Source: Halobacteriales archaeon YIM A00013 (GTDB lineage: Archaea; Halobacteriota; Halobacteria; Halobacteriales; Haloarculaceae). Taken from it: a DNA stretch of 64,000 nucleotides. A program made the translations under genes and the position numbers. Shown in pieces: positions 7,647 to 53,536 of the stretch (the stretch's first letter is position 1; every line of letters begins with the position of its first letter). Under the pieces are notes generated by a model that was not told the origin of the DNA, did no database searches, and saw nothing but the letters and a program-made list of their open reading frames with translations. The DNA lies in the NCBI GenBank assembly GCA_025041195.1, contig JAKCFM010000001.1, positions 310,001-374,000 on the forward strand, given 5' to 3'.

Positions 7647-8538
7647 TCTGCTCGACTGGAGGGGGCGACTCACTCGTCTCAGAACGGCGGTTGGCCCCGT
7701 CTCAGAGCTGTTCCTTGTCGGCTGCTTTCTTCTCCTCGCATATTACTGGGAAGCGACGGCGATTGCATCGGTAACACGGGCAGTGCTCGGCCCGGATGCG
7801 CTGGTATTGTCCCTTCAGATCCCGCTTTCAATCGGCCTGCTCGTGGGTGGGCTCGCAATCGGTGCGCGATACGACGGCGCTGGCGCTGCGATCATGGCTC
7901 ACCACTCGCTCGCTTCGAGAGCGTGGCTGCTCACGGCTGCGCTCTGTCGGCGAGCCGTTGGGCTCTGGACGCTCACCGTTCTCGCAATCGGTAGTGGTGG
8001 AGTGATCGCGCTTCGCACTGGCTCATCCCCCTCGATCGTGGCACTCGGCGGGTTCGTGTTCGTGTCACTGTTGTATGGGTGGTTCTGGATCGCGATGGGA
8101 GCGTTCTGTGCGAACGCTGTCGGTGGGCAACGGCGAATGCGGAGTGTGGTGGTACTCACCGCCGCGGTTGGACTGCTATGGAAACACCTCGCAACGGGTG
8201 TCTACTCGTTCGTTCGATCGGTCTCTGTGAACCCGTTTTTTCCACCTGCGGATGGTCCGTTGTTTCTGCTTCGACGGATCGATCCCCGGGGTGCGTATCT
8301 GGTGGTGACAAACTGGCTGTATGGGGTGGGTAACGCAGCCGGACCGTACCAGGCAGTGGTGTTCGAACTCCACGGGGCCGGGCAGTCGCTGACGAACGTG
8401 CTCGTGGTCGAAGGCACGTTTCCAATCCCACCCGCCTATCTCCATCCCCTCCTGGCCGGGGTGGTTCTCCTGGGCTGGTGCGCGTTCGTCTGGGTGATCG
8501 TTCTCAGTACGCTACGAGCGCATCCCATCAGTCGGTGA
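7636..8538 (+). CDS. Multipass membrane protein, ABC-2-permease-like
   Basis: Six or seven hydrophobic segments over 300 aa, with a long extracytoplasmic loop around residues 195-265 before the final helix. This layout and the hydrophobic pattern resemble ABC-2-type export permeases of haloarchaea, but no ATPase gene lies beside it. The open frame extends upstream to 7423, yet ATG 7636 (MATDLLDW), overlapping the end of the Tat protein by 11 bases, is the sensible start. Its stop faces that of the HTH-CBS gene. Permease identity is inferred from topology only. Confidence 0.6.
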   Translation: MATDLLDWRGRLTRLRTAVGPVSELFLVGCFLLLAYYWEATAIASVTRAVLGPDALVLSLQIPLSIGLLVGGLAIGARYDGAGAAIMAHHSLASRAWLLTAALCRRAVGLWTLTVLAIGSGGVIALRTGSSPSIVALGGFVFVSLLYGWFWIAMGAFCANAVGGQRRMRSVVVLTAAVGLLWKHLATGVYSFVRSVSVNPFFPPADGPLFLLRRIDPRGAYLVVTNWLYGVGNAAGPYQAVVFELHGAGQSLTNVLVVEGTFPIPPAYLHPLLAGVVLLGWCAFVWVIVLSTLRAHPISR

Positions 8539-8542
8539 ACGA

Positions 8543-9088
8543 TCAGGAGATGTGGGCGGCGACGTCCGCCTCGGTGATGATCCCGATCATCTCTCCGCTT
8601 TCGATCACGATGATCGCATCGTGGTGATTGAGATGGGTGTCGACTTCTGAAAGCGTTGCGTCGGGTGTCACTGTGGTGATCGACTCTCGCATGATCTCGG
8701 CAATCGGGAGCGCACCTGGCTCAGAATCATCGTCGATCTGGCGAATGTCGCTGTTCGAGATGATTCCAACCGGATAGCCGTCCCGGATAACCGGGAGCTG
8801 GGAGTAGCCCTCTGGCGTCATCTGTTTGGTTGCCGCTTTCACGCTGTCATCGGGTGCAATCCCGACGACTGGACTGTGCATGATATCACCGGCACGCCGA
8901 ACTGACGCACCGGCCTCGTTGAGTGCGGTAACGATCCGGCGGAGCGTCGACAGCCGCGGGTCAACGTCGCCCCCCTCGATGCGTGCGATCAACGGCTGGG
9001 AGACTGAAGCCATTTCCGCGAGCTCGCTCTGGGTCAGATCCAACTCATGGCGGCGTTCTCGGAGGTCCTCCGGCGTCGGAAGTTCCAT
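8543..9088 (-). CDS. Transcriptional regulator with XRE-type HTH and paired CBS domains
   Basis: Residues 1-60 form a Cro/XRE helix-turn-helix (LRERRHELDLTQSELAEMASVSQPLIARIEGG, shown here only as its key region: LTQSELA then SQPLIARIE). Residues 70-181 hold two CBS motifs, ending in IIVIESGEMIGIITEADV, which normally sense adenosyl ligands such as AMP or SAM. This domain pair is widespread in archaea and is taken to couple DNA binding to energy or metabolite state. I chose ATG 9088 (MELPTPEDL) over an upstream codon because the HTH begins directly after it. Targets are unknown. Confidence 0.85.
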   Translation of the reverse strand: MELPTPEDLRERRHELDLTQSELAEMASVSQPLIARIEGGDVDPRLSTLRRIVTALNEAGASVRRAGDIMHSPVVGIAPDDSVKAATKQMTPEGYSQLPVIRDGYPVGIISNSDIRQIDDDSEPGALPIAEIMRESITTVTPDATLSEVDTHLNHHDAIIVIESGEMIGIITEADVAAHIS

Positions 9089-9139
9089 GTTCGAGATAAC
9101 CACTAGTTATACAAAAATGTTGCCGATCGGCCGATCACC

Positions 9140-9499
9140 TTACTGATCGGCGTCGTCCTCGATCTTGGCCGTGTGGATCACTTTCAGTGGGACGTTTTTG
9201 AGCGCGCCACCGATCTCGCTTTTTGCGACCCGCTGGGCGTGCTGTTCGCTGTCGACGTTGAAAACGTCCATTTCGAGGATAAGCCCGACCAGCGCGGTGT
9301 CTGCGGCGATATACGCCGAGTCGAACGCTTCATTGCAGACCGGACACTCCGTCGCACCGATCTCGACTTCGACGTAGTCCATATCCGTCTCGTTCAATCG
9401 TTTGCCGGCTTCGCTAACCGCGACACCAATCGCATCGTTTATACTTTCGACATCTCTCACAAGCCACGCAGCCTCGACGGCGACGAGATAGTTGCTCAT
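9140..9499 (-). CDS. UPF0212/DUF555 family protein
   Basis: A small archaeal protein (119 aa) of the UPF0212 family. It starts MSNYLVAVEAAWLVRDV, has a CxxC pair (ECPVCNEAF) near residue 55 and ends with KVIHTAKIEDDADQ. The cysteine pair suggests a metal site but no function is established. The start is at 9499 rather than at the longer open frame at 9544, because conservation begins with MSNYLVA. It precedes the HTH-CBS gene on the same strand with 51 bases between. Confidence 0.8.
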   Translation of the reverse strand: MSNYLVAVEAAWLVRDVESINDAIGVAVSEAGKRLNETDMDYVEVEIGATECPVCNEAFDSAYIAADTALVGLILEMDVFNVDSEQHAQRVAKSEIGGALKNVPLKVIHTAKIEDDADQ

Positions 9500-9926
9500 G
9501 CACCGTCTTAGAATTCGAGGATATCCATCTTTGTGGTTCGACAATGTGATTTTAAGATTACATCTAGGGACGAAATGGTATATAGATGGTTCTTATGTCA
9601 ATGTAAATGGTAATTAAGTGGAACGCAACTTGCCGAATATGTTGGAAATTCGCAGGTGATATGCGTAATAATGGTGCGTATTATGCTCGCACCCCACTGT
9701 TCGACTCGGTTCGCGGATGACACAGCTATCTCGCCCATAGGTTATGGTGAACCAATGAATCAGGAATGTGTCATCTCCCTCGTTGATACGTTCGTGGCTC
9801 CGTTGGGTGCATCGTGAGCACCGTCGAACGCTCTCCAGGATAAAACCACCAGACGACAGCGTGGTTGCCTGATTTTGCCTGTCGGAACCCTTTTCTGTCT
9901 CAAGTTTGTTCCCGGCAGGTGAGGAC
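9500..9926. other. Intergenic region
   Basis: About 430 bases between two divergent genes, AT-rich on the left. I see an imperfect inverted repeat, GATGACACA at 9716 with TGTGTCATC at about 9767, that could be an operator or hairpin. I find no tRNA and no convincing reading frame. The right end carries GAGG just before the small membrane protein. Confidence 0.4.
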
Positions 9927-10100
9927 ATGTTGAGACGGCTTCGGTCAATAGGCCTGTTCGCACTGTATCAGATCATCATCGTCACGGGGATTGTGCTGCT
10001 TCCGTTTGGAATGGTGGCCACTCGAATGGGTGTCCCGTTCCCATTCCAGCGGCTCCTCCGTCTATTTGCACCGTCGGAGGCGTCGACTGACGGTCGGTGA
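9927..10100 (+). CDS. Small single-span membrane protein
   Basis: A 57-residue protein: a basic start (MLRRLRSIG), one long hydrophobic segment (residues 10-35) and an amphipathic tail ending in ASTDGR. GAGG stands a few bases before ATG 9927. It lies 49 bases upstream of psmB in the same direction, an arrangement that may reflect co-transcription. No function is known to me. Confidence 0.55.
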   Translation: MLRRLRSIGLFALYQIIIVTGIVLLPFGMVATRMGVPFPFQRLLRLFAPSEASTDGR

Positions 10101-10149
10101 ACTGCTCGAAGGAGTGCTTTTATCAGCACTGGGTGGGTACGCGCTACTA

Positions 10150-10872
10150 ATGCGCGAACACCAGCTTTCGGGGCAGGTTTCCGTCCCAGATCGGCGTGAT
10201 TACCTACCGCCAGTGCACGAACCGGAGCTCGGTTCACTGCCGGACGTATCGACTGCCGATATGGATTCGGTGAACAAGACTGGAACGACGACGATCGGCA
10301 TTGCTGCCGAGGATGGTGTCGTCATCGCGACCGACATGCGCGCGAGTCTTGGTGGTCGATTCGTTTCGAATAAGAACGTCCAGAAGGTCGAGCAGATCCA
10401 CCCAACGGGGGCAATGACCCTCGTTGGGAGCGTTGGGGGCGCTCAATCGTTCATCCGCAACATGCGTGCGGAGGTGAATCTGTACGACGTTCGCCGTGGT
10501 GAGGAGATGTCGATCCACGCGCTCGCAACGATCGCCGGCAACTACGCCCGTGGTGGGCCATTCTTCCAGATCAATCCAATTCTCGGCGGCGTTGACAGCG
10601 ATGGCTCACACGTCTACTCGATCGATCCGGCCGGCGGCGTGATGGAAGACGACTACACCATCACTGGTTCCGGTCTGACGGTCGCCTACGGCACGTTAGA
10701 GCGTGAATACGAAGACGATCTCTCGATTGCAGAGGCAAAATCGGTCGCCGCAAGCGGTATCAAAGCCGCAGTTGAGCGTGACACCGGCTCCGGTAACGGT
10801 GTGTATCTCGCCGAAATCACTGACGAAGGCGTCGAGATTGCGGGCCACAAGGCGTTCGAGGACGTCCTGTAG
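10150..10872 (+). CDS. psmB: Proteasome subunit beta
   Basis: Catalytic subunit of the archaeal 20S proteasome. A propeptide of 45 residues ends in KTG, and autocleavage would expose Thr46 (TTTIGIAAEDGVV), the N-terminal nucleophile. The other catalytic residues follow the usual spacing (ATDMRAS, Asp near mature residue 17; SNKNVQKV, Lys33). The start at ATG 10150 gives 240 aa, typical for haloarchaeal PsmB. It converges with the HEAT-repeat gene, with stops two bases apart. The alpha subunit is not in the window. Confidence 0.95.
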   Translation: MREHQLSGQVSVPDRRDYLPPVHEPELGSLPDVSTADMDSVNKTGTTTIGIAAEDGVVIATDMRASLGGRFVSNKNVQKVEQIHPTGAMTLVGSVGGAQSFIRNMRAEVNLYDVRRGEEMSIHALATIAGNYARGGPFFQINPILGGVDSDGSHVYSIDPAGGVMEDDYTITGSGLTVAYGTLEREYEDDLSIAEAKSVAASGIKAAVERDTGSGNGVYLAEITDEGVEIAGHKAFEDVL

Positions 10873-10874
10873 CG

Positions 10875-13800
10875 CTATCTGTGTGGCTGGGGTAGCTCTC
10901 CGTCGTCGGCCGCCGGTAGAATCGCTCGCATCGCGGTTTCTCGCAGGAATTCGTCTTCCGTTTCGAGCAACCCAACCAGCTTCTCGATCGCGTCGGTGAT
11001 CGCGGCCGGATTGGCTTCGGCGATCGAAGCGATCGCGGCCACGGCGTTTTTCTGGATGATCCCATCGTCGGCGTCGAGCAGCGCAACCAGGTTATCAACG
11101 GCCGCAATGGCCGCATTTGGCGCGTAGTTCGTTATCTCTTTGATCGTTCTGACGGCGAGCTCCTGTGTTGTCGGCTCGCCGGTTAGATGGCCAACCAGCA
11201 CGTCAATCGCGGGTGCGGCCGCACCGGGTGTCGTGGTCGCAATCGCTGCGGTAGCTCGGGCAGCCCGTCGCTGGACGGCTGGATCCGGATCGTCGATCAT
11301 CGCCCCGAACTGTCCAACCGGTGGGATCGAAAGGCCTGTTGGAGAGAGCGCGATCGATTCCAGCGCGGTGATGGCCTGGCGTCTGACGTACGGATCGTTC
11401 GCCCCAAGACAGCGTTGCAGCTGCGTTTCTGCGGTGAGCGTGGCGTCAGGATCGTGTTCTGCAGCCCTGGCGATCGCATAAATTGCCGTCTTCCGGACGA
11501 GTGCTTCTGGGCTGTCGAGAAACGAGGCCAGCGATTCCGTCGCTGGAACGGCGACTGCTGGATCACTTTTTGCGATCCAGCCAATGCCGATCACCGCACC
11601 GTGCTGTAAGTAGCGATTCTCGTCGTCGAGCAGTTCAATGAGCGAACTGACTGCCGGGAGTGCAGTGGTCGGCGATCCGTAGGCAATCAACACCGTTGCC
11701 TGTACCGCGAGCTCTTTCGTGTACGGATCATCGACCGAGAGCAGTGGAATGAGCGACTCGATGGCCGTTCCCACTGTCTTCGGGGCGGTATCTGCGAGCA
11801 CGGCCATCGCCGTCACGGCGATCGACCGCCCGATCGTCGCTCCGGAGCCAAGCAGCTTGGCGAGCGTGCGAACGGTCGATTCGGATAGCTCTTCGTCTGG
11901 CTCGACGCGTGCGAGCGCCTCAAGTGCCCCAACAGCCGACCGTTGGGCATCGAGGGCGTTGGCACCGAGTCGTGGCAACAGCGCATCCACTGACGGCGTC
12001 GATGTGGGTGGAAGCTGGATGACAAACGAGACGACCGTCCGTGTGGCCGCCTTTCTGATCGGCACGGCCTCGGCAGCGAGCTGTGGGACGACGATATCGA
12101 TGACGGGAATGATCGCCTCAGGGATCGACGTTGCAATCTCAGCGATTGCGTACAGCGCGTTTTCCTGGACGGTTTCGGATGGATCGCCGAGCATGGTTTC
12201 AAGGAGCGAAACCATTCCAGCGATCGATTCCGGTTCAACACCGCTAATCGCGGCGATTGTCCCGGCGGCGTGCTCTCTGACGCCCCGTGGGGTGCTGTCG
12301 TCCGTGAGGGCCTCGGAAACGACATCAGTGGCCGGAACGACCGACTCCGGGTCAGCGGTTACGATCGCCTGGAGCGCTGCTGCGCTGTGTTGCTGGAGCA
12401 ACTCGTCATCGGCAACCAGACACGCAGAGAGCTCATCCACGACCGAACTCGCCGCTGTTGGCCGCACGGTCGTGATTTCAGCGATAATTCGCACTGCTTT
12501 GGTCTGGAGCGACCGCCATTCGCTCGACAGCAACGGCGTGAGCGTCTCGACCGCACCACAGGCAGCACTTGGCGCGACAATCGCCACGTCGCACAGCGCA
12601 CAGATTGCTTTCCACCGGATGAGTCGCTCGTCGCTTTCGAGACATTCGATCAACGACGGTGTCGCCCCAATCACTGTCCGTGGCGCCACCTCCGCGATGG
12701 CGGCGACGACACGCGCTGCGTTGGCCCGAACGCTCCGGTCGTCAGCCGCAAGCATCGGAATGATCGCCGGGGCTGCTGGAACGACGGCGTCGGGCTCCTG
12801 GATGGCTATTTCTGCGAGCGCACGGACGATGAGCGCATCAGTGTCAGAATCCTCGCCGAGGAGCGTCGTCAGCGGTCTGACAGCCGGCGTGGCCGCCCGT
12901 GGAGAGGTTGTGCCGACGACCATGATCGCTGCCGCAACGTATTTTTGCACAATCTGTCGGTCGGAGTCGAGCAAGAACAAGAGCGGATCAACCGCGGGCA
13001 CCGCACCGTCTGGAACGTCCGAGGCAATTTCAACGATCGAGCGCAAGGCGAGTTGCTGGCCGATCGATTCATCGGCGTCGATTAGCGTTGCCAGCGCGTC
13101 GACCGCCCTGATCGAAGGACGGGTAGCCCCCTCAGTCAGGGCGGCGATCGTTCGCGCCGCCTGTTTTCGGACGAACGACTCGTTGGTGTCCAGTGGCGCC
13201 AGTAACGAATCCACCATCGGCGTCACTCGATCGGGCATGCTTGACGTGATAGCAATCACCGCCCGGATCGCAGACCGCTGGATGGCAGAATCGTCCGCAG
13301 TCAGCAGTCTGAACAGTGGATAGTAGGCGTCGATAACGGCTTCGGGAGCGTGCTGTGCCACAGCGGCGACGATGTGGACCGCCGCACTGCGGGTGATCGA
13401 ATCGTCGCAGTCGAACAGCTCGACGGCCGGATCGACCGCCGGAATGACCGCTTCTGGGTCGATATCGGCAATTTCTGAGAGCGAGCAGATCGCGATCTTT
13501 CGTTGATACGGCTTCTCTGCGGTGAGTCGTTCGACGAGCGCGTCGATCGCTGGGCGCACCGCAGTTGGAGATGAGAGCGTGATGCCGGCAAGCACCTCCA
13601 GTGCGGCCTGCTGGCCGCTCGAATGGCTGGTCTGGAGGATTGTAACCAGGTCAGTGACGGCCCCAGCCGGAATCTCGACCGCAGTCTCGACGATCTGTTT
13701 CAACGAATGGACCGCCAGTGTGCGGAGTGAATCCGATTTCTCATCGAGCAGCGTCACCAGCGGTTCGATTGCGGACTGACAGCGGGCAGGCGACGCCTCA

Positions 13801-38628: not shown

Positions 38629-40195
38629 GTTTCAATCCCGTTCTGAATCTAGGGTACTGCGACCGTCAACGCGCTCCTCGTGGTTGTCTCGCACGAACAT
38701 GTTTCAATCCCGCTGTGGGTTTCTAGGGTCCTGCGACCGCCGACGGCGATCCCGATGAGGAACGAATGCCACTCGTTTCAATCCCGCTGTGGGTTTCTAG
38801 GGTCCTGCGACGTAGCGTTTGGCCTGATCGTAGGACGGCCCAACCGTTTCAATCCCGCTGTGGGTTTCTAGGGTCCTGCGACAATGGCCTCGGCTTCATG
38901 GTACTGCTGACCATCGTACCGTTTCAATCCCGCTGTGGGTTTCTAGGGTCCTGCGACAGATGAAACTGCCCTGATGGCGGCGGTCCTGATCATGTTTCAA
39001 TCCCGCTGTGGGTTTCTAGGGTCCTGCGACTTGTCGATATCGAACGTTTCCGTGCCGGAGCCGTCGTTTCAATCCCGCTGTGGGTTTCTAGGGTCCTGCG
39101 ACGCGACCGAGATCCCGTTAATGACGGCGATGATGATGTTTCAATCCCGCTGTGGGTTTCTAGGGTCCTGCGACTCAAGAGCAATCCGGACCGTGGGGAT
39201 GCAGTAAGATCGTTTCAATCCCGCTGTGGGTTTCTAGGGTCCTGCGACATACTTAATCCGAGAGAAAACGGATCTGGACAAAGGGTTTCAATCCCGCTGT
39301 GGGTTTCTAGGGTCCTGCGACTCCAAAGCTTCGAATAGCCAATAAATCGCTATCAAGTTTCAATCCCGCTGTGGGTTTCTAGGGTCCTGCGACGGTAGGA
39401 GTGTGTTATGCTCTGTCGAGGCGACGACGTTTCAATCCCGCTGTGGGTTTCTAGGGTCCTGCGACGAGTATCACAGCGACAACTATCTTAACTTCAACTG
39501 GGGTTTCAATCCCGCTGTGGGTTTCTAGGGTCCTGCGACGATTCGTCGGAATAGACGCTGTCGTACGTGATTTTGTTTCAATCCCGCTGTGGGTTTCTAG
39601 GGTCCTGCGACTTTTTCCCTTGTTCTGTTCTACTTCTCCTATGCCGTGTTTCAATCCCGCTGTGGGTTTCTAGGGTCCTGCGACCACTCATTGTTATCTT
39701 CCTCCAAATTGTATTCCGCAGTTTCAATCCCGCTGTGGGTTTCTAGGGTCCTGCGACTTGCATTGGCATTTTGTGGTCCCTCCATACTACATTGTTTCAA
39801 TCCCGCTGTGGGTTTCTAGGGTCCTGCGACGGAGCATCACCATCGGCCGAATAGACGGGGATACCGTTTCAATCCCGCTGTGGGTTTCTAGGGTCCTGCG
39901 ACATATTTGGAACAGTCATTGTACGCACTCGATTGCTGGAGTTTCAATCCCGCTGTGGGTTTCTAGGGTCCTGCGACGATGCATCTAGCGTATCGTCTAT
40001 GGCCCGTATTGCTTGTTTCAATCCCGCTGTGGGTTTCTAGGGTCCTGCGACGATACCAACGAGCCAGCAGAGACTCACCCTGTTTCGTTTCAATCCCGCT
40101 GTGGGTTTCTAGGGTCCTGCGACGTCTCGTATTCTGTTACTGTGTCCTTCATGCTTTGGTTTCAATCCCGCTGTGGGTTTCTAGGGTCCTGCGAC
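38629..40195 (-). CRISPR. CRISPR array 1 (22 repeats, 21 spacers)
   Basis: 21 repeats of 37 bases start GTTTCAATCCCGCTGTGGG and end CTAGGGTCCTGCGAC on the + strand; one shorter degenerate repeat at 38629-38663 ends the array. Spacers are 34-38 bases. The transcribed strand is the minus strand: the handle ATTGAAAC is then at the repeat's 3' end and the leader lies at the right. So the newest spacers are near 40159 and the oldest near 38664. The degenerate end repeat contains CCCGTTCTG, resembling array 3 rather than array 1. No spacers within this array are identical by eye. Confidence 0.98.
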
Positions 40196-40713: not shown

Positions 40714-42165
40714 ATGAAACAAACACGCAGACAAATAGTGAAAACCCTTTCTGGACTTCTCGCAGGGGGTGGTATACTCGGCCAAGGAGCAGGACAATTC
40801 ACTACTTCCGACAGCTCTATCATATCTCAAAATAAAGTAGCATCCAATACTAATACGACACCACTCGAAAATATGAATGGATCAACATATCTCGCACTCC
40901 CCGGCGCGTCATTGACCTCCCTGATGGCAAATCTGCCACAGCTACTTTATGATGATTCTCCTTCTGTTATCTATCTCGATTCATATGATTACGCTCGGCA
41001 TCGCGGTCGGTTTTTGACTGAACGGGGGAACACCAAGATCCAGGCCCTCGGAATGGCCTTCGAAGAATTACGTCGCCGTGGCAGACTTCGAACCATCAAT
41101 TACGGGGAGTACTATCCACAGTGGATTCAAGAACGGAACGCGGAGCAGTGTCAAGCATTGCTTGATGCCGCGTCCGACACGGCAGTGCAACACGCTGCAG
41201 TCCAGGCTGGGAACGGATACTTGGACTACTGTCTCGGTTCCTATCAAGACACCCTCCGAGCTGGATTAGACGATGGATCACCGTTCACTAACCGACGGGA
41301 AAGTGTGGCTCACCAACGTAAGAAAATGGAACGAGGAGGGGGAGATCCGGAGACCTGGCACAAGCGAATCTTCAGCCAATATCTGACTGCACTTGCAGTT
41401 CGTCACTACGTGAACCGCGACCGTGACGTGCACATCGACGGGATTATCGGCCAGGGAGAAACAAAAGGTATCGACGCACTCCTTCGCTCCTCTGATATCG
41501 ATATGAGTGACTTTGGATCACCTGGGTATCCTACAGACCATATCGGACGAGTCAACACAAAACGCAGCGCAGCCCTGAACAATCGACTGGATATGGTTGG
41601 TACGCTAGCGAGAGAGATCACAGGAACACAGCACCATGATTGCTTTCTGTTGGGTCCACGACTCGCTTTTCCTCAGCTCTCGGAGATATTCCCCGAAGCG
41701 TGGCATTCGCTCCAATCAGACTACGATATGTCTGAATTGGTCTCTGAGACCCACGAAATACTCTCACACCTCGAAACAGCGGATGAGGACAATCGGTCTG
41801 TGGCTGCGATTGAGGCCCAGGCTGATTGGCTTGCAGAGGAGAGTGACCTTTCCTCTACTGATACACAAGATTTGGTCGATCAGGTGGATTCCGCTGTAAG
41901 TCTCTCAAATCATTCCCGGGAACTGCGGGAGTTTGTCGCTGAGGGAAGGTCTCCAGCAGCAATTTATCTGGCTGCTTCGATCAAACAAGATCCACAGTAT
42001 CGATACAACGAAGATTCAATATTTAGCAGGGTCCAATTTTTGAAAAGTCGTCTCGAACCAATGGCAATCTCCAACTCAGAGATTGATTACTTCAAAGATC
42101 GAGGGAATTTCCGACGAGGAGAATCCGGCAAAGACTGGCATCAAAATTCTATCTTCCATCGATAG
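40714..42165 (+). CDS. Unknown protein with Tat-like N terminus
   Basis: 483 residues starting MKQTRRQIVKTLSGLLAGGG, a probable twin-arginine signal, with mature sequence from about residue 28. The body is hydrophilic and mostly helical. Recognisable features are few: a YLDSYDYARHRGRFLTERG stretch near residue 92, HYVNRDRDVHIDGIIGQGETKG near residue 233 and a basic C terminus. I do not recognise a family. It converges with the following regulator, stop codons adjacent. It opens the block lying between CRISPR arrays 1 and 2. Confidence 0.6.
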   Translation: MKQTRRQIVKTLSGLLAGGGILGQGAGQFTTSDSSIISQNKVASNTNTTPLENMNGSTYLALPGASLTSLMANLPQLLYDDSPSVIYLDSYDYARHRGRFLTERGNTKIQALGMAFEELRRRGRLRTINYGEYYPQWIQERNAEQCQALLDAASDTAVQHAAVQAGNGYLDYCLGSYQDTLRAGLDDGSPFTNRRESVAHQRKKMERGGGDPETWHKRIFSQYLTALAVRHYVNRDRDVHIDGIIGQGETKGIDALLRSSDIDMSDFGSPGYPTDHIGRVNTKRSAALNNRLDMVGTLAREITGTQHHDCFLLGPRLAFPQLSEIFPEAWHSLQSDYDMSELVSETHEILSHLETADEDNRSVAAIEAQADWLAEESDLSSTDTQDLVDQVDSAVSLSNHSRELREFVAEGRSPAAIYLAASIKQDPQYRYNEDSIFSRVQFLKSRLEPMAISNSEIDYFKDRGNFRRGESGKDWHQNSIFHR

Positions 42166-45212: not shown

Positions 45213-46283
45213 TTAATTTTCGAAAACAAATGACCCATCTTGCTGTATCATCTCACCATCGACAGTCACAACACCACCCTCCCGCATGTCAATGAGCATA
45301 TCGACGTGAATCGTGCTTTCATTCCCTCTCTTCGGAGCAGCTCGGTCGCTCGCACTCCCGAGGGCGAGGTGGACAGTCCCTGCCATCTTCTCATCGAAGA
45401 GGATGTTCTGAGTGAACTGGTCGATGCCACGATTCATTCCAAATCCAATCTCACCCAGTCGTCGAGCACCGCTGTCAGTATTGAGTAGTGATGTCAATGT
45501 GGATTCGTTTGTGGCTGCGTGGTGCTCAACTACTTCTCCTTGCTCGAACGTGAGAGTCACGTCTTCGATAGTCTGACCAGCATGTTGTACCGGAAAATCG
45601 AACTTGACTATACCATTTATAGAGTCAACAATTGGTGCGGTAAACACCTCACCGTCTGGAAGGTTTCCGCGTCCATCTCCATTAATGGCGTGCATACCAT
45701 TAACTGACATCGTGAGATCGGTGCCTGTTGGGCGGGTTAGATTGATCTCACTTGCGGATTCTAGATACTCGACCAACTGTTCTTGAAACTCATGCTGGGC
45801 CTCCCAGTCCTGATTGATAGCATTCCAAACGAAATCTTCGTACGCTTTGGTGCTCATTTCAGCCTGCTGTGCATTACCTGGTGCTGGATAGACTGTAAAC
45901 ACATCTCTATCAGGAACTGCTTCCTGGACTGGTGCACTCGCACGTGCTACAGCTTGTCCAACTTCGGCGGGAGTTTCGCTATGTTCTGCAGTGTTTGTAT
46001 GACTTTGAATAACAATATGAACATCTGTTTCCTCCATCGCTGCTACGGTATGCTCAGCTGTAACAGCATCCTCCGGGGCGAGTGCTTGAAGATAGGCTGC
46101 ATTGGCACGGGAATTGAGCCACGTGAGCCTCGGACGTGCACCGATCTGTCCAAGTTGTTCATTCAGGGCGATAACCAGCTTCTCTGCAGAGGTCGGTGCC
46201 TTGACCTCTACCATATCGCCTTGCTCGACACGAGCAGAATGGTGTATTAGAATTGACGCATGGCGTTGAATTCGTTTGTCCAT
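45213..46283 (-). CDS. M29-family aminopeptidase
   Basis: 356 residues of the thermophilic metalloprotease (M29, AmpS/PepS) family. The C-terminal half contains the paired metal site: INGIVKFDFPVQHAGQTIEDV, VEHHAATNESTLTSLL (His and Glu ligands), GEIGFGMNRGI, and NESTIHVDMLIDM (His and Asp). I chose ATG 46283 (MDKRIQRHASILIHH) because the family begins there; the open frame runs 43 codons further with no conservation. It removes N-terminal residues from peptides. It is divergent from the lanM group, so a part in trimming a leader peptide is possible but unproven. Confidence 0.82.
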   Translation of the reverse strand: MDKRIQRHASILIHHSARVEQGDMVEVKAPTSAEKLVIALNEQLGQIGARPRLTWLNSRANAAYLQALAPEDAVTAEHTVAAMEETDVHIVIQSHTNTAEHSETPAEVGQAVARASAPVQEAVPDRDVFTVYPAPGNAQQAEMSTKAYEDFVWNAINQDWEAQHEFQEQLVEYLESASEINLTRPTGTDLTMSVNGMHAINGDGRGNLPDGEVFTAPIVDSINGIVKFDFPVQHAGQTIEDVTLTFEQGEVVEHHAATNESTLTSLLNTDSGARRLGEIGFGMNRGIDQFTQNILFDEKMAGTVHLALGSASDRAAPKRGNESTIHVDMLIDMREGGVVTVDGEMIQQDGSFVFEN

Positions 46284-46397
46284 ATACTGCTGATAGATCT
46301 CAAACTGATAAATAACGTAGTGACTAACCTTAGCTAATTCACAATGGTCACTATATTCTATACTGGTGATATAATAAATTAGCGATTTTGAATTGGT

Positions 46398-46404
46398 TAA
46401 ATAC
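46398..46404 (+). promoter_or_regulatory. Candidate TATA box for the lanA-lanM transcript
   Basis: TTAAATA lies 24-30 bases before ATG 46428. This is the spacing expected for a haloarchaeal leaderless transcript beginning at that codon, and no Shine-Dalgarno sequence is seen before it. Confidence 0.45.
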
Positions 46405-46427
46405 CATGTCAATGTACTTTTTCTTGG

Positions 46428-46556
46428 ATGATTGAGAAATCACCACCCGATCTGAAGACGGGCATAGAACACCACTATCGACGAGAGGACCTTCCGGTTG
46501 AAATCGGGAGATTGGACGAATCTGGACAAGGATCTGTTCCAGCTCCACAGTGCTAA
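46428..46556 (+). CDS. Candidate lanthipeptide precursor peptide
   Basis: A 42-residue frame directly upstream of the LanM gene, same strand. The first 30 residues are charged (leader-like, MIEKSPPDLKTG... then DLPVEIGRLDE), and the last residues are SGQGSVPAPQC with cysteine as the final residue before the TAA. Ser and Cys in the tail could form one lanthionine ring. A TATA-like box at correct distance supports expression. Against it: only one Cys, no classical GG motif, and the frame is the same as that of lanM, so it could also be an N-terminal extension cut off by a stop codon. Assignment is tentative. Confidence 0.4.
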   Translation: MIEKSPPDLKTGIEHHYRREDLPVEIGRLDESGQGSVPAPQC

Positions 46557-46634: not shown

Positions 46635-49600
46635 GTGAAAATGGTGCCAGCATTATCGACGGAAGAAAAACAAGCAATTGCAGGTCGTGCACGAACACTG
46701 CACGAACGTATTGAGATGTCCTCCGCCAGTGGAAAACCGGTTGACAATCCAAACGCCTGGATGGATGAGTGGGAGGAACGGGTTGTAGACGGGGACAAAG
46801 CACAGTTCACTATACGACTTGATCAGCTTGGATTGTCATATGGAGATTGTCGTGAACGACTCCAAAACCATGGATGGCCAGCAGAAAAATCGCTTCCTGA
46901 GTGGGTTCATCAACTTGATGACCTTATCCAATACGTAGCCACAAAACCAACTGAAATAACCCACTCCGATGCTGAACAGCCCTTCGAACATATACTTTCA
47001 GTTATCGTTGCGTATGCGACTGAGAGGCTTGATATAGACATTCCTCGATATATCTCTGAGAGCGCCGTTGATGGGTCGAAAGATGTACTCTATTCCCGTC
47101 TCGATCTGTTCGTTACTCATCCTCTGTTTATTGAGTTCAAAACCTTTTTCGCACAGCGAGATGAATCGCTGATCTTCAGCGAAGATCCTACACCTACCGG
47201 AGATCCTCACCAGTATTACGACCAATTTGTTGGCGCTGTGCTAGCTGACGGGTTGAAATCGTTCTTCATCGAGTATGCCTTTCTCGCACGACTAATCACG
47301 ACATTTATCAACCAATGGTTCACCACTATCGAGGAGTTTTGCAACCGTCTAGAGAGTGACTACCTACAATTGGAAGCAATAACTTCGAAAGATGAGCAAC
47401 TTGGAACGCTTATCGACATTGAACCCAAAGGCGATTGGCATGAAGGCGGCAGACAGGTATTATGCCTCACGTTCGAAGATGGACGAAAGATAGCCTATAA
47501 ACCCAGAAATCTCGATCTCGAAGCAGGACTATTCGAGCTCCTCTCCTGGATCAACAAATCTGGCGAAATGATAAATTTCGAAAGTATTGCAGTTATCCCC
47601 CGAGACGAATATGGTTGGGTTGAGTGGATTGATCCTGCCCCTTGCTCTGTTGAAGAGGAGGTAAAACAATACTATCACCGCGCTGGCGCACTCACGTGCC
47701 TTTTGTATCTTCTTGGATTCTCCGATGGTCATCTAGAAAATATCATCGCAGCGAACGAGCACCCCGTCGTCATAGATGCAGAGACACTCGCCCAACCCCA
47801 GCCAGATCCGTCACATCTTCCGGTGAATCGGACACTCAGACGTGTAATGCATGAATCTGTTCTGCGTACGGGATTGGTTCCAATGCATTGGCCGGACAGC
47901 GACTCCACGGACAACAGTGGATTTGGACGGAGTACGATGCATTCGGAGGTGCAAAATCGAGAATTTCGAGATATAAATACTGATCTCATGGAGTTGAGCT
48001 ATCAAAGTGAAGCAACGCTAGAGGGAGATAATCTTCCCACACTGGATGGACAAAAGGTCAAAGGAGATGATTATGTGTCTGACATCATCCAGGGCTTCGA
48101 AGGGATGTACGATTTTCTCCAGACTCACAAGGAAACACTTCTAGCTGAGGAGACGCTCACCCACTTTCGGGATGCAGAAGTTCGGTATGTCTTTCGGCCG
48201 ACCGATAATTATGCCCGCATTCTGACTATGATGACCACACCGCAGTATCTCAGAACTGGCCTTAAATTCGGCTGTAAGGTCGAATCTCTCGCTCGACCGT
48301 TGCTCTCCGGAACTGAGTCAACTAGTGTTTGGAAGTTATATACAGCTGAGAGAGTCGCTCTTCGAAATGGAACGTTTCCCCGTCTCTCAACCACTACTGA
48401 TAGCACTGAATTGCGGGTGGGTACGACTATAATCGAGGAGTTCTTCGAGAAAACCTCACTATCTCGACTCAACTACTCAATTAATCGTCTCTCTGATACT
48501 GACCAACAGGAACAGCAGCGATACCTCCGGTGGGCACATGGTGGTTCACTTCACTCAAATCACCGCTCAACCACTATGTCCTCCACCCTTCATGATCCTC
48601 ACACAATCGTCAATGAGAACGCAGCGACCTGCGCACGCGACATTGGCGAACGAATTCTCTCGAACGCAAATTACACTCACACGGGAGAATTGACCTGGAT
48701 TCGACGAACTCTCGGCCCGAATGGTGGAGTTCATCTTCATACTATTCCTCCTGGATTGTATGCCGGATGGATGGGACTGGCTCTGTTTATGGCAGCGCTT
48801 TACCGGGTTACTGAGGAAAAGAAGTATGGAGCGGCCATTGAAGAAATTGTAGATCCGATAGCAGATCCGAAGACAGGAGGTTTTCAGCCGAGCGAACAAT
48901 CTGTCGGTGGCGGCACTGGTCTGGGTGGGATAGTGTACGGTTTCACAAAACTCGGAACCTTCCTTGCCGACGATCGATACTCCGAAATCGCCACTAGGTA
49001 TCAGTCAATGCTCACACCAGACCGCATTATTTCCGATGACGCATTCGATGTAGTGGATGGCAGTGCTGGAGCGATACTTGGGCTTCTTGCACTTTACGAG
49101 GCAACTGGACATTCACAGTCGTTAGAACGAGCAGAGATAGCTGGTGATCACCTACTGAAACACAGCACGGAGATCGACGGAATACCAGTCTGGATACCGA
49201 GTACTATTGAGCAGCCGCTTACAGGATTCGCTCATGGGACCTCTGGTATCGCATACAGCCTCACTCGACTTTCCACCGCTACACAGGCTGACCGATTCAG
49301 GGAAACGGCTCTGAACAGTCTCGCGTATGAGCGACACCAGTACGTTGCCAGGGAACAGAATTGGCGGGATCTTCGTCCGGATTCGTCTTCATACATGGAT
49401 GCTTGGTGTCATGGACGAAGCGGAATAGGTCTCGCACGACTCGGAATTGCCGAACACGGAGATTTGGAACAGGTACAAGACGAACTCAATCAGGCACTGG
49501 ACGGGGTGACAATGGCCCTCGCAGATGACGACCACCTCTGTTGTGGTACCTCCTCCCGTATTTCGTTTCTTCTCCAAGCAGCTCAGGTGTTGGACGAACC

Positions 49601-49793
49601 AAAGTATCGCGAGCAAGCCACCCAGCTGCTAGCAGCGAGTATCGAACAGTCAGCCACGCGAGGACGGTTTCGTACGAAGTGGCAAACTCAACACTGGTAT
49701 GATCCCGCGTTCTTCCAAGGGGAGGCCGGGATTGGATACATCTTGCTCCGTTGGCTCGATCCAACGCTACCATCTATTGCGCTTTTTGAATGA
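46635..49793 (+). CDS. lanM: Class II lanthipeptide synthetase LanM (CCG type)
   Basis: 1,052 residues. The N-terminal dehydratase domain shows GRKIAYKPRNLD near residue 284, FSDGHLENIIAA (Asp364) and VVIDAETLAQP (Asp381): kinase-like residues that phosphorylate and eliminate Ser/Thr of a precursor. The C-terminal cyclase resembles LanC: FAHGTSGIAYSL, then zinc ligands Cys925 in WCHGRSGIG and Cys969-Cys970 in LCCGTSS. A third cysteine in place of histidine defines the CCG group, which includes the relaxed-specificity ProcM. GTG 46635 or ATG 46641 may be the start. No transporter gene is adjacent. Lanthipeptide synthetases are known from haloarchaea. Confidence 0.93.
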   Translation: MKMVPALSTEEKQAIAGRARTLHERIEMSSASGKPVDNPNAWMDEWEERVVDGDKAQFTIRLDQLGLSYGDCRERLQNHGWPAEKSLPEWVHQLDDLIQYVATKPTEITHSDAEQPFEHILSVIVAYATERLDIDIPRYISESAVDGSKDVLYSRLDLFVTHPLFIEFKTFFAQRDESLIFSEDPTPTGDPHQYYDQFVGAVLADGLKSFFIEYAFLARLITTFINQWFTTIEEFCNRLESDYLQLEAITSKDEQLGTLIDIEPKGDWHEGGRQVLCLTFEDGRKIAYKPRNLDLEAGLFELLSWINKSGEMINFESIAVIPRDEYGWVEWIDPAPCSVEEEVKQYYHRAGALTCLLYLLGFSDGHLENIIAANEHPVVIDAETLAQPQPDPSHLPVNRTLRRVMHESVLRTGLVPMHWPDSDSTDNSGFGRSTMHSEVQNREFRDINTDLMELSYQSEATLEGDNLPTLDGQKVKGDDYVSDIIQGFEGMYDFLQTHKETLLAEETLTHFRDAEVRYVFRPTDNYARILTMMTTPQYLRTGLKFGCKVESLARPLLSGTESTSVWKLYTAERVALRNGTFPRLSTTTDSTELRVGTTIIEEFFEKTSLSRLNYSINRLSDTDQQEQQRYLRWAHGGSLHSNHRSTTMSSTLHDPHTIVNENAATCARDIGERILSNANYTHTGELTWIRRTLGPNGGVHLHTIPPGLYAGWMGLALFMAALYRVTEEKKYGAAIEEIVDPIADPKTGGFQPSEQSVGGGTGLGGIVYGFTKLGTFLADDRYSEIATRYQSMLTPDRIISDDAFDVVDGSAGAILGLLALYEATGHSQSLERAEIAGDHLLKHSTEIDGIPVWIPSTIEQPLTGFAHGTSGIAYSLTRLSTATQADRFRETALNSLAYERHQYVAREQNWRDLRPDSSSYMDAWCHGRSGIGLARLGIAEHGDLEQVQDELNQALDGVTMALADDDHLCCGTSSRISFLLQAAQVLDEPKYREQATQLLAASIEQSATRGRFRTKWQTQHWYDPAFFQGEAGIGYILLRWLDPTLPSIALFE

Positions 49794-49800
49794 GCGTAAC

Positions 49801-50327
49801 AGTCTGGACTTCGGCGTGATTCGTGAGGTTGACTAAGCTATCGAGCGTCTTGAACAGATACCGCTCGCAGATCTCGCGCAACCGACCTAGGAGTGGTACA
49901 ACGACCGACGGAGTGAATTGGCTCACCAATTCAACGCAACGATAATTCACGACGATCTCAAGCCACTGCATTTCCTTGTGGTGACTGATGAAAAACCAAC
50001 CATCAGTGCCACCGTCGATTGGGAGGATGTGATGGCCGGCCCACCCGAACTGCAGGTTACAATAGCCCTCACATTATTCGATCGACAGCTTGGGGAACTC
50101 GATAAACCGACGATCTACGATCGGTCTGTGAACGGCTATCGATCAGTTCAAGACCTCCCAGCAGGCTATGAACAGGGTGGCACGCTGTATGAGCTCAGAC
50201 TAGTCGCCTAGTCAGCACTCTTCAGCCGGATCTCGGCACCAGTGACGGTTATGAAACGGCTGTCGAACGCTATGCTCGAACAGCCTTCTATCAGGGCATT
50301 GAAGATAGAGAACTCATTTGGTATTAA
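49801..50327 (+). pseudogene. Decayed aminoglycoside-phosphotransferase-like kinase
   Basis: Translation from 49801 gives a phosphotransferase-like sequence broken by stops at 49834 and 49888 (TAA, TAG): AIERLEQIPLADLAQPT, stop, EWYNDRRSELAHQFNATIIHDDLKP. The Brenner-type motif is IIHDDLKPLHFLV and the metal motif is VDWEDVMAGPP. After another stop near 50209, the frame shifts and continues as SDGYETAVERYARTAFYQGIEDRELIWY to TAA at 50327. A TTG-initiated 97-codon frame (49918-50211) survives but lacks the N-lobe. This is a remnant, probably of a kinase gene that arrived with the block. Confidence 0.75.
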
Positions 50328-50442: not shown

Positions 50443-50823
50443 TAGGGTCCTGCGACTTAGACGAATTTCTTGCAATCCAAACACCATATCCCGTTTCAAT
50501 CCCGCATTGGGTTTCTAGGGTGCTGTAACGATTGACCACCTCAATATTGATGAAGCCGACCGCGTGTTTCAATCCCGCATTGGGTTTCTAGGGTGCTGTA
50601 ACGATTGACCACCTCAATATTGATGAAGCCGACCGCGTGTTTCAATCCCGCATTGGGTTTCTAGGGTGCTGTAACAATACAGTAAACGAGTGTGAGACAG
50701 TCGCAATGATAGTTTCAATCCCGCATTGGGTTTCTAGGGTGCTGTAACCCCATCGGGACTACTGCAATCTCAAACGTTCAGACGTCGTTTCAATCCCGCA
50801 TTGGGTTTCTAGGGTGCTGTAAC
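50443..50823 (-). CRISPR. CRISPR array 2 (5 repeats, plus a truncated sixth)
   Basis: Five 37-base repeats at 50493, 50566, 50639, 50712 and 50787. They start GTTTCAATCCCGCATTGGG and end CTAGGGTGCTGTAAC, so the middle and the end differ from arrays 1 and 3. The first and second spacers (50530-50565 and 50603-50638) are identical. A broken repeat TAGGGTCCTGCGAC at 50443-50456, followed by a 36-base spacer, carries the array 1/3 ending. The leader is at the right, and transcription is leftward. Confidence 0.95.
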
Positions 50824-52314: not shown

Positions 52315-53425
52315 GTTTCAAACCCGTTCTGTCTAGGGTACTGCGACAGGGACTCCGGAGTGAAAACGCACGTAGGCCGCTCAGTTTCAATCTCGTATTG
52401 GGTTTCTAGGGTCCTGCGACCGAACGCGCAGCAGTTGGATTGGGAGGAGTGGGAGGTTTCAATCCCGTTCTGGGTTTCTAGGGTCCTGCGACAGGTTCGG
52501 CAGCAGATAGACGACGCTGTTCGCGAGTTTCAATCCCGTTCTGGGTTTCTAGGGTCCTGCGACGAAGCGCGGCCCAAACGGACAATCGCAGTCGTCCTGT
52601 TTCAATCCCGTTCTGGGTTTCTAGGGTCCTGCGACGAAGCGCGGCCCAAACGGACAATCGCAGTCGTCCTGTTTCAATCCCGTTCTGGGTTTCTAGGGTC
52701 CTGCGACATCCTCTTGCTTAGCCCAGAAAGGCAGATTCCTATCGTTTCAATCCCGTTCTGGGTTTCTAGGGTCCTGCGACAGAATAGGTGTCATCGGTTG
52801 CATCGCCATCGACATGTTTCAATCCCGTTCTGGGTTTCTAGGGTCCTGCGACCCGACGGCCCGGTTGCGATCGAGATAGTCGAATAGGTTTCAATCCCGT
52901 TCTGGGTTTCTAGGGTCCTGCGACCATTCAAACCCATTCGACGGAACGTTTCGATGTTGTTTCAATCCCGTTCTGGGTTTCTAGGGTCCTGCGACGAAAC
53001 TGAGTCCGTTGGAGTCTGAAGCCGCGTATATGTTTCAATCCCGTTCTGGGTTTCTAGGGTCCTGCGACGTCGTCGTTTGGAGGGCTCGTCAGTCATCGAT
53101 AGTTTCAATCCCGTTCTGGGTTTCTAGGGTCCTGCGACTTCGTACACTGCGCGTGTGCCATCGTCGGCAGCCGTTTCAATCCCGTTCTGGGTTTCTAGGG
53201 TCCTGCGACTTCGCAGCATCGATATCGATGAAGTCTGTGGTAAGTTTCAATCCCGTTCTGGGTTTCTAGGGTCCTGCGACTTCGCAGCATCGATATCGAT
53301 GAAGTCTGTGGTAAGTTTCAATCCCGTTCTGGGTTTCTAGGGTCCTGCGACTCGGCGTGCGCAAGAATGGGGTTCTGTACGTCAAGGAGTTTCAATCCCG
53401 TTCTGGGTTTCTAGGGTCCTGCGAC
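52315..53425 (-). CRISPR. CRISPR array 3 (16 repeats, 15 spacers)
   Basis: Repeats start GTTTCAATCCCGTTCTGGG and end CTAGGGTCCTGCGAC. The leftmost, 52315-52347, is degenerate and short; the next, 52384-52420, has CTCGTATTGGG. Two adjacent spacer pairs are identical: 52564-52598 with 52636-52670, and 53210-53243 with 53281-53314. Leader is at the right, so crRNAs are transcribed leftward from next to cas2. The array lies directly at the end of the cas operon. Confidence 0.98.
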
Positions 53426-53536
53426 AGGGGGTGATAATTGGAGTATAGCCCCTATAATCGTTTCTACATCGGCGAGAATGAGGGCCGTCTTCGTGGACCC
53501 CCCCCTGTACACAGACCTTATAAAGGTCCACGAAGG
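53426..53536 (-). promoter_or_regulatory. Leader and promoter of array 3
   Basis: Arms CTTCGTGGACC (53489-53499) and GGTCCACGAAG (53525-53535) flank CCTTATAAAGG (about 53517-53526). Homology to leaders 1 and 2 ends at about 53536, seven bases from the cas2 stop codon. So transcripts from the cas operon may read into the array. Confidence 0.8.

Follow-up and report, generated by a model that had tools for sequence, protein, structure and literature searches.

The open reading frame (ORF) at positions 46428 to 46556 of the window, i.e., the whole stretch of 64,000 nucleotides that was analyzed, very probably encodes a class II lanthipeptide precursor, as judged from its sequence. We also hold with considerable confidence the fuller reading that this gene, named lanA, has its own promoter, and that the LanM enzyme would dehydrate Ser36 of its product and cyclise it to Cys42. 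The features of the locus are the following:

45213 to 46283, minus strand: M29 aminopeptidase gene, divergent (PF02073, 5.4e-56)
46397 to 46403, plus strand: TTAAATA, probably the TATA element from which lanA is transcribed without a 5' leader; the transcript is expected to start at or very near 46428
46428 to 46556, plus strand: lanA, 42 aa, ATG at 46428 and TAA at 46554-46556, with homology to lanM-linked precursors of nine other genomes
46641 to 49793, plus strand: lanM, class II lanthipeptide synthetase with a kinase-like dehydratase, a LanC cyclase and a CCG zinc motif; in-frame GTG at 46635 as alternative
49918 to 50211, plus strand: remnant (C-terminal part) of an APH-type phosphotransferase gene; genome G044 has it whole, 348 aa, in locus L022

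The lanA-lanM locus

The lanA translation (MIEKSPPDLKTGIEHHYRREDLPVEIGRLDESGQGSVPAPQC) comprises a leader (LKTGIEHHYRRED), which covers approximately residues 1-31 or 1-35, and a core ending in GSVPAPQC. Its C-terminal part contains Ser32, Ser36 and a single cysteine, Cys42. The stop-free frame of lanA has no start codon upstream of the ATG at 46428, and the gene precedes lanM with a gap of 84 bases. A sequence-only reading had singled out this 42-residue frame, ending in SGQGSVPAPQC and lying in register with lanM, as a candidate lanthipeptide precursor. Both the ORF and its register with lanM (GTG 46635, ATG 46641) were found as described, and the leader family and the rankings reported below support the proposal.

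The same reading had placed TTAAATA 24-30 bases before the ATG and considered that the start fits a leaderless transcript. The element is present, but it lies at -31 to -25 from the lanA ATG. The pattern TT[TA]A[TAC] was observed at -36 to -26 of the ATG for 14 of the 18 family genes; the control ORFs had it in 22 of 634 cases at these loci and in 8 of 329 within the window. This contrast is somewhat flattered, as the pattern was picked after inspecting the sequences. It was missing before the genes of L048, L049 and L083 and before one gene of L053, while a TATA-like element at -31 was common to the window, to Actinarchaeum halophilum (G039) and to both L060 genes. The placement of this element, shared by most of the family, would fit a leaderless lanA transcript, in agreement with the earlier proposal.

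The lanM product presents the two domains of a bifunctional LanM (DUF4135, 9.7e-107; LANC_like, 1.9e-57), reaches 774 bits against TIGR03897 (cut-off 304), as expected for a full LanM, and aligns with its relatives from its first residues. Its YKPR, DGHLEN, DAET, FRPT, WCHG and CCG motifs align with those of LicM2 and CylM, in which the Lys, DxH, Asn and Asp belong to the kinase-like site, the Arg to the elimination site, and the last residues are the LanC zinc ligands (PMC4550811). The third zinc ligand is a Cys (CCG). Among 41 loci examined, CCG was present in 29 of the 31 with a pattern match, the other two being CHG (L012) and a non-LanM frame (L054). ProcM-type LanMs have CCG, which is linked to substrate tolerance in ProcM, and Halorussus CCG LanMs have already been noted (PMC10027976).

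Several neighboring elements were considered as parts of the pathway. The M29 aminopeptidase was rejected as a dedicated leader protease, as no homologue lies in or near any other LanM locus compared; it is a neighbor, and not evidently part of the pathway. A dedicated C39 transporter was also rejected, since the source genome gave no Peptidase_C39 (LanT-type) match. This result bears on leader removal, not on class II membership. A module made of a Tat-like protein (40714-42165, 483 aa, without Pfam or NCBIfam match), an HTH gene and a TFB gene shows synteny between the window and L022. It was not retained as part of the cluster, as the 40714 family is multicopy and genus-restricted, and so not tied to lanM (10 places in G000, the window's genome, 7 in G039 and 9 in G044; 6 of 146 family genomes).

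Locus L022 (G044:C5, same genus), the flank of which matches that of the window (40714 homologue, HTH, TFB), contains a LanM only about 30% identical to the window's. At the domain boundary, this LanM is split into two frames, a dehydratase of 645 aa (8141-10078) and a cyclase of 394 aa with a CHG motif (10085-11269). A 45-aa candidate precursor lies upstream (L022:7962-8099, end STCLSTNISCDD), and a whole APH-type kinase gene follows. The window's genome also carries a second lanthipeptide locus (G000:C3), with lanM at L013:8841-12023 and a divergent 86-aa precursor at L013:8433-8690 on the minus strand (end SSSTCKSTACGGKSCH), 69% identical to a G044:C4 precursor located beside a sister LanM. 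Finally, three CRISPR-like arrays flank lanA-lanM (38701-40195, 50493-50823 and 52384-53460; 37-base repeat, 34-38-base spacers). The repeat version of 50493-50823 differs at several positions, and the trailing sequence of the arrays recurs three times.

Leader family and related LanM enzymes

LanM homologues were detected in 9 of the 146 family genomes and in 39 of the 392 order genomes sampled. Around the LanM genes related to the window's, compared for the ten nearest LanM loci first and for further LanM loci later, there are short ORFs with a common leader (consensus LKAxxExxYxRxD). Some cores of this family are identical to the published cores of archalan gamma (CSCYTRICCDIDS, L055) and archalan beta (GLPSASMYSFEHCC, L096) (PMC12144867; PMC10105419). 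The Halorussus litoreus locus L056 also carries precursors with the family leader, and this species is reported to make litlans (PMC12144867). The sequence-only reading had called for a comparison with the regions upstream of related lanM genes, and its outcome favors a gene of its own: wherever found, the homologous ORFs are separate from lanM, and a Cys is kept in the C-terminal region, in the last aligned Cys column of all 14 aligned precursors (in A. halophilum this Cys is the penultimate residue, not the last).

The archaeal LanA leader motif Kx(Y/F)(D/E)xx(F/Y) of Castro et al., as quoted in PMC10105419, is not matched exactly by the window leader (K-T-G-I-E-H-H-Y, with one residue more and Ile for Tyr/Phe), nor by that of archalan gamma. 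In the precursor alignment, the family leaders mostly read (K/R)-x-x-(I/F/V/L)-E-x-x-Y. The window ORF had no match in Pfam, the other 13 rows of alignment A2 gave nothing meaningful there (best E 0.09, one row), and three short precursor stretches scanned against NCBIfam gave no matches.

Membership of lanA in this family was evaluated by several scores. Among the 414 window ORFs of 30-60 aa, lanA ranked first, with a summed local BLOSUM62 score of 378 against 12 precursors from other genomes, the G039 precursor being excluded (runner-up 278), and this score was reached by none of 2000 shuffles. Single comparisons ranged from strong (0 of 5000 shuffles as high vs. the G039 precursor, and likewise vs. 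L049) to weak (933 of 5000, i.e., 19%, vs. L053a, and 587 of 5000 vs. L054a). A full-length profile built without the window row placed lanA first among 1787 stop-free frames (E 3.1e-4), and first again when the G039 row was also removed (E 0.019). It also ranked first with a leader-only profile lacking the window, at E 0.09, the weakest value of the family. When each of the 11 other precursors was omitted from the profile in turn, E ran from 6.5e-10 to 3.9e-3 in searches of their respective loci, which are smaller (306-566 frames each, vs. 1787 frames for the window).

Profile A2 (14 rows, window included) was then searched in the 392 genomes, 20 of which had matches at E up to 0.05. The 18 places with E below 1e-4 belonged to 10 genomes, all among the 39 with LanM, and judging by coordinates none of these places lies farther than about 3 kb from a LanM. 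Four of these places (G256:C6, G259, and one each in G199 and G297) were not A2 rows. The other 12 places, at E 0.003 to 0.05 and including one in the window's own genome, look like chance matches. Beyond lanA, the source genome contained no credible A2 match, the next (E 0.003) being inside a 133-aa frame far from LanM. On sequence similarity, the window ORF is a weak but first-ranked member of the archalan beta/gamma leader family.

In the LanM tree (43 rows), the 13 LanMs with the family leader form one side of a 99/99 branch, where they are joined by L044, the upstream ORFs of which carry a similar DIETEY stretch. The LanMs of the window and of G039 are sisters (100/99), and a five-row subgroup (99/96) consists of the window, G039, archalan gamma's LanM, G259 and G256:C4. 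Four of the five precursors of this subgroup (window, G039, G259 and G256:C4) have a single Cys, so that precursors with one Cys are a recurrent feature of this subgroup.

The window is a haloarchaeal sequence, located at positions 310001-374000 of G000:C1. Its genome belongs to the same genus as G039 (A. halophilum YIM 93972), with lanM on a 99,700-base plasmid, and G043 (Halocatena salina AD-1), which has a 415,306-base plasmid. Within this genus, the precursor was found in only 2 of 7 genomes and LanM in 4. Scanning the named genomes with a single LanM query returned no loci, and with alignment A1 it returned 10. No close orthologue of lanA-lanM was found in the named genomes and plasmids searched, and the plasmids contained no DNA nearly identical to lanA-lanM. 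The sister locus of A. halophilum contains:

77408 to 77542 of NZ_CP071308.1: precursor ORF of A. halophilum YIM 93972, 44 aa, translation MSELDMTSVKEQIEAKYSRNDYQIRIHEMGSSSGGSVKGHPDCD
L014:9467-11551 (NZ_CP071308.1): LanM of the same strain, dehydratase-only, a 694-aa frame stopping before the cyclase

This precursor ORF is absent from the PLSDB gene table of the plasmid record, a table which is incomplete. As LanM lacks the LanC domain and a search for LANC_like gave no matches in the A. halophilum genome, the pathway may be dead in this strain. LanM matches likewise end near residue 633 in two order genomes (G251:C6 and G411).

Predicted product and alternative explanations

We propose that a promoter of its own drives lanA, the transcript of which probably lacks a 5' leader and would yield a 42-aa precursor; LanM would recognize the leader of this peptide (LKxxIExxYxRxD). 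The enzyme would convert Ser36, and possibly Ser32 as well, to dehydroalanine by phosphorylation and dehydration, and the Cys42 thiol would then be added by its LanC domain in a Michael addition that closes one lanthionine ring. Host proteases would then cleave off the leader. A cut after Gly35 would release the 7-residue macrocycle SVPAPQC, with its first and last residues joined and no tails. At most one ring is possible, as lanA encodes one Cys. The likeliest ring would be Ser36-Cys42, with Ser32-Cys42 as an alternative, Ser36 being favored by the alignment of the window and G039 cores (G-S-V...P-x-C).

Three other explanations of the ORF were weighed. The sequence-only reading had itself raised the possibility that the ORF is a severed N-terminal extension of LanM, coding for nothing alone, and the lanA and lanM frames are indeed in register in the window. 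This explanation was rejected and now appears barely credible: from about 46641 onward LanM is a complete protein, whose first residues already align with its relatives, and the homologous ORFs are separate genes with their own start and promoter-like element, the G039 ORF lying in another frame than lanM (offset 211), and the precursors of L049 and L083 (G259 gene) lying on the opposite strand. An intergenic ORF that resembles a precursor by chance, the true LanM substrate being elsewhere, is also improbable. Short ORFs are common in the window, and the leader score of lanA is the weakest of the family; however, lanA comes first of 414 ORFs, beyond all shuffles, and its location matches that of its relatives, with 207 bases from ORF start to LanM match in the window and 217 in G039. 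Moreover, it shares its core pattern and the -31 position of the promoter-like element with G039, and no other match in the genome is credible, including the E 0.003 frame mentioned above.

Somewhat less improbable, though still far behind, is a real precursor gene that has become a relic and no longer yields a cyclised product. The sister locus G039 has lost the cyclase domain, the kinase gene downstream in the window is a remnant, and no transporter gene was recognized among the scanned neighbors. Against this stand a full-length window LanM with all checked motifs present and an intact precursor ORF, Cys included. Our preferred explanation is that lanA is the precursor gene of a one-ring product that the adjacent LanM would make.

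The gene itself, its homology, its genomic linkage, the placement of its promoter and the intact motifs of the enzyme are observed here; for the peptide, we infer its modification, ring pattern, cut site, export and activity. It would be an anti-haloarchaeal or cell-behavior peptide, by analogy with published lanthipeptides of archaea, which either inhibit haloarchaea or make the cells more motile and more often rod-shaped (PMC12144867). The lanA gene would add to the archaeal lanthipeptides a precursor whose core probably forms one ring of 7 residues. As a small substrate with a single ring, it also lends itself to simple tests of an archaeal LanM of the CCG type. The leader profile together with the -31 TATA placement offers a practical route to such genes.

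Streptomyces has morphogenetic lanthipeptides, and the window's peptide could be pictured as their functional counterpart, a morphogen or developmental signal that haloarchaea with hyphae and spores would use outside the cell, perhaps sensed via a BldK-like oligopeptide importer; this we regard as very improbable. Related cores do occur in the source genome and in A. halophilum, placed here in the same genus, and the latter has a hyphal life cycle and a BldK-like importer (PMC10067837). Effects on cell shape are also reported for haloarchaeal lanthipeptides. However, the presence of the precursor in 2 and of LanM in 4 of the 7 genomes of the genus, the loss of the cyclase in G039 and the lack of a close orthologue argue against an essential role and against such a developmental function.

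Comparison with known systems

Class II lanthipeptides from archaea are already known, as are their leaders and small products with one ring. The literature searched appears to contain no report of the lanA precursor or of its core subfamily: two exact peptide strings had no occurrence, and no report joining Halocatena and lanthipeptide was found; an entry in the supplementary tables of mining papers is possible.

The archalan gamma and beta precursors of Halorussus salinus resemble that of the window by their leader family, by their LanM tree group (99/99) and by the position of the precursor at or near lanM, and archalan gamma's LanM is of the CCG type, as is the window's. In contrast, their cores are unrelated in sequence and contain several Cys, with more than one bridge, whereas the window core has one Cys and at most one ring. 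The A. halophilum precursor is closer, with the same place, leader and core pattern and 36% identity (core SGGSVKGHPDCD vs. GQGSVPAPQC in the window), but its ring would be one residue larger, its peptide ends in Asp, and its LanM is devoid of the LanC domain that the window LanM has. The precursors of G259 and G256:C4 (ends AGHMTIAFCYDTSPDLH and AGQMTVAFCGGHYTNLE) share with the window one Cys, the leader family and the five-row LanM subgroup, but they differ by their divergent orientation, by a Thr rather than a Ser before the Cys and by a longer tail. In both loci (L083 and L103), these divergent single-Cys precursors have the common core AG(H/Q)MT(I/V)AFC and possibly constitute a separate one-ring subfamily. 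Finally, sallan A2 (SalA, Halorussus salinus), a six-residue one-ring product with the sequence CTRYSF and a Cys1-Ser5 ring (PMC12144867), has a different core in which the Cys precedes the Ser. Like the product predicted here, it is archaeal, very short and has one ring, and its six residues indicate that haloarchaea do make products of this size.
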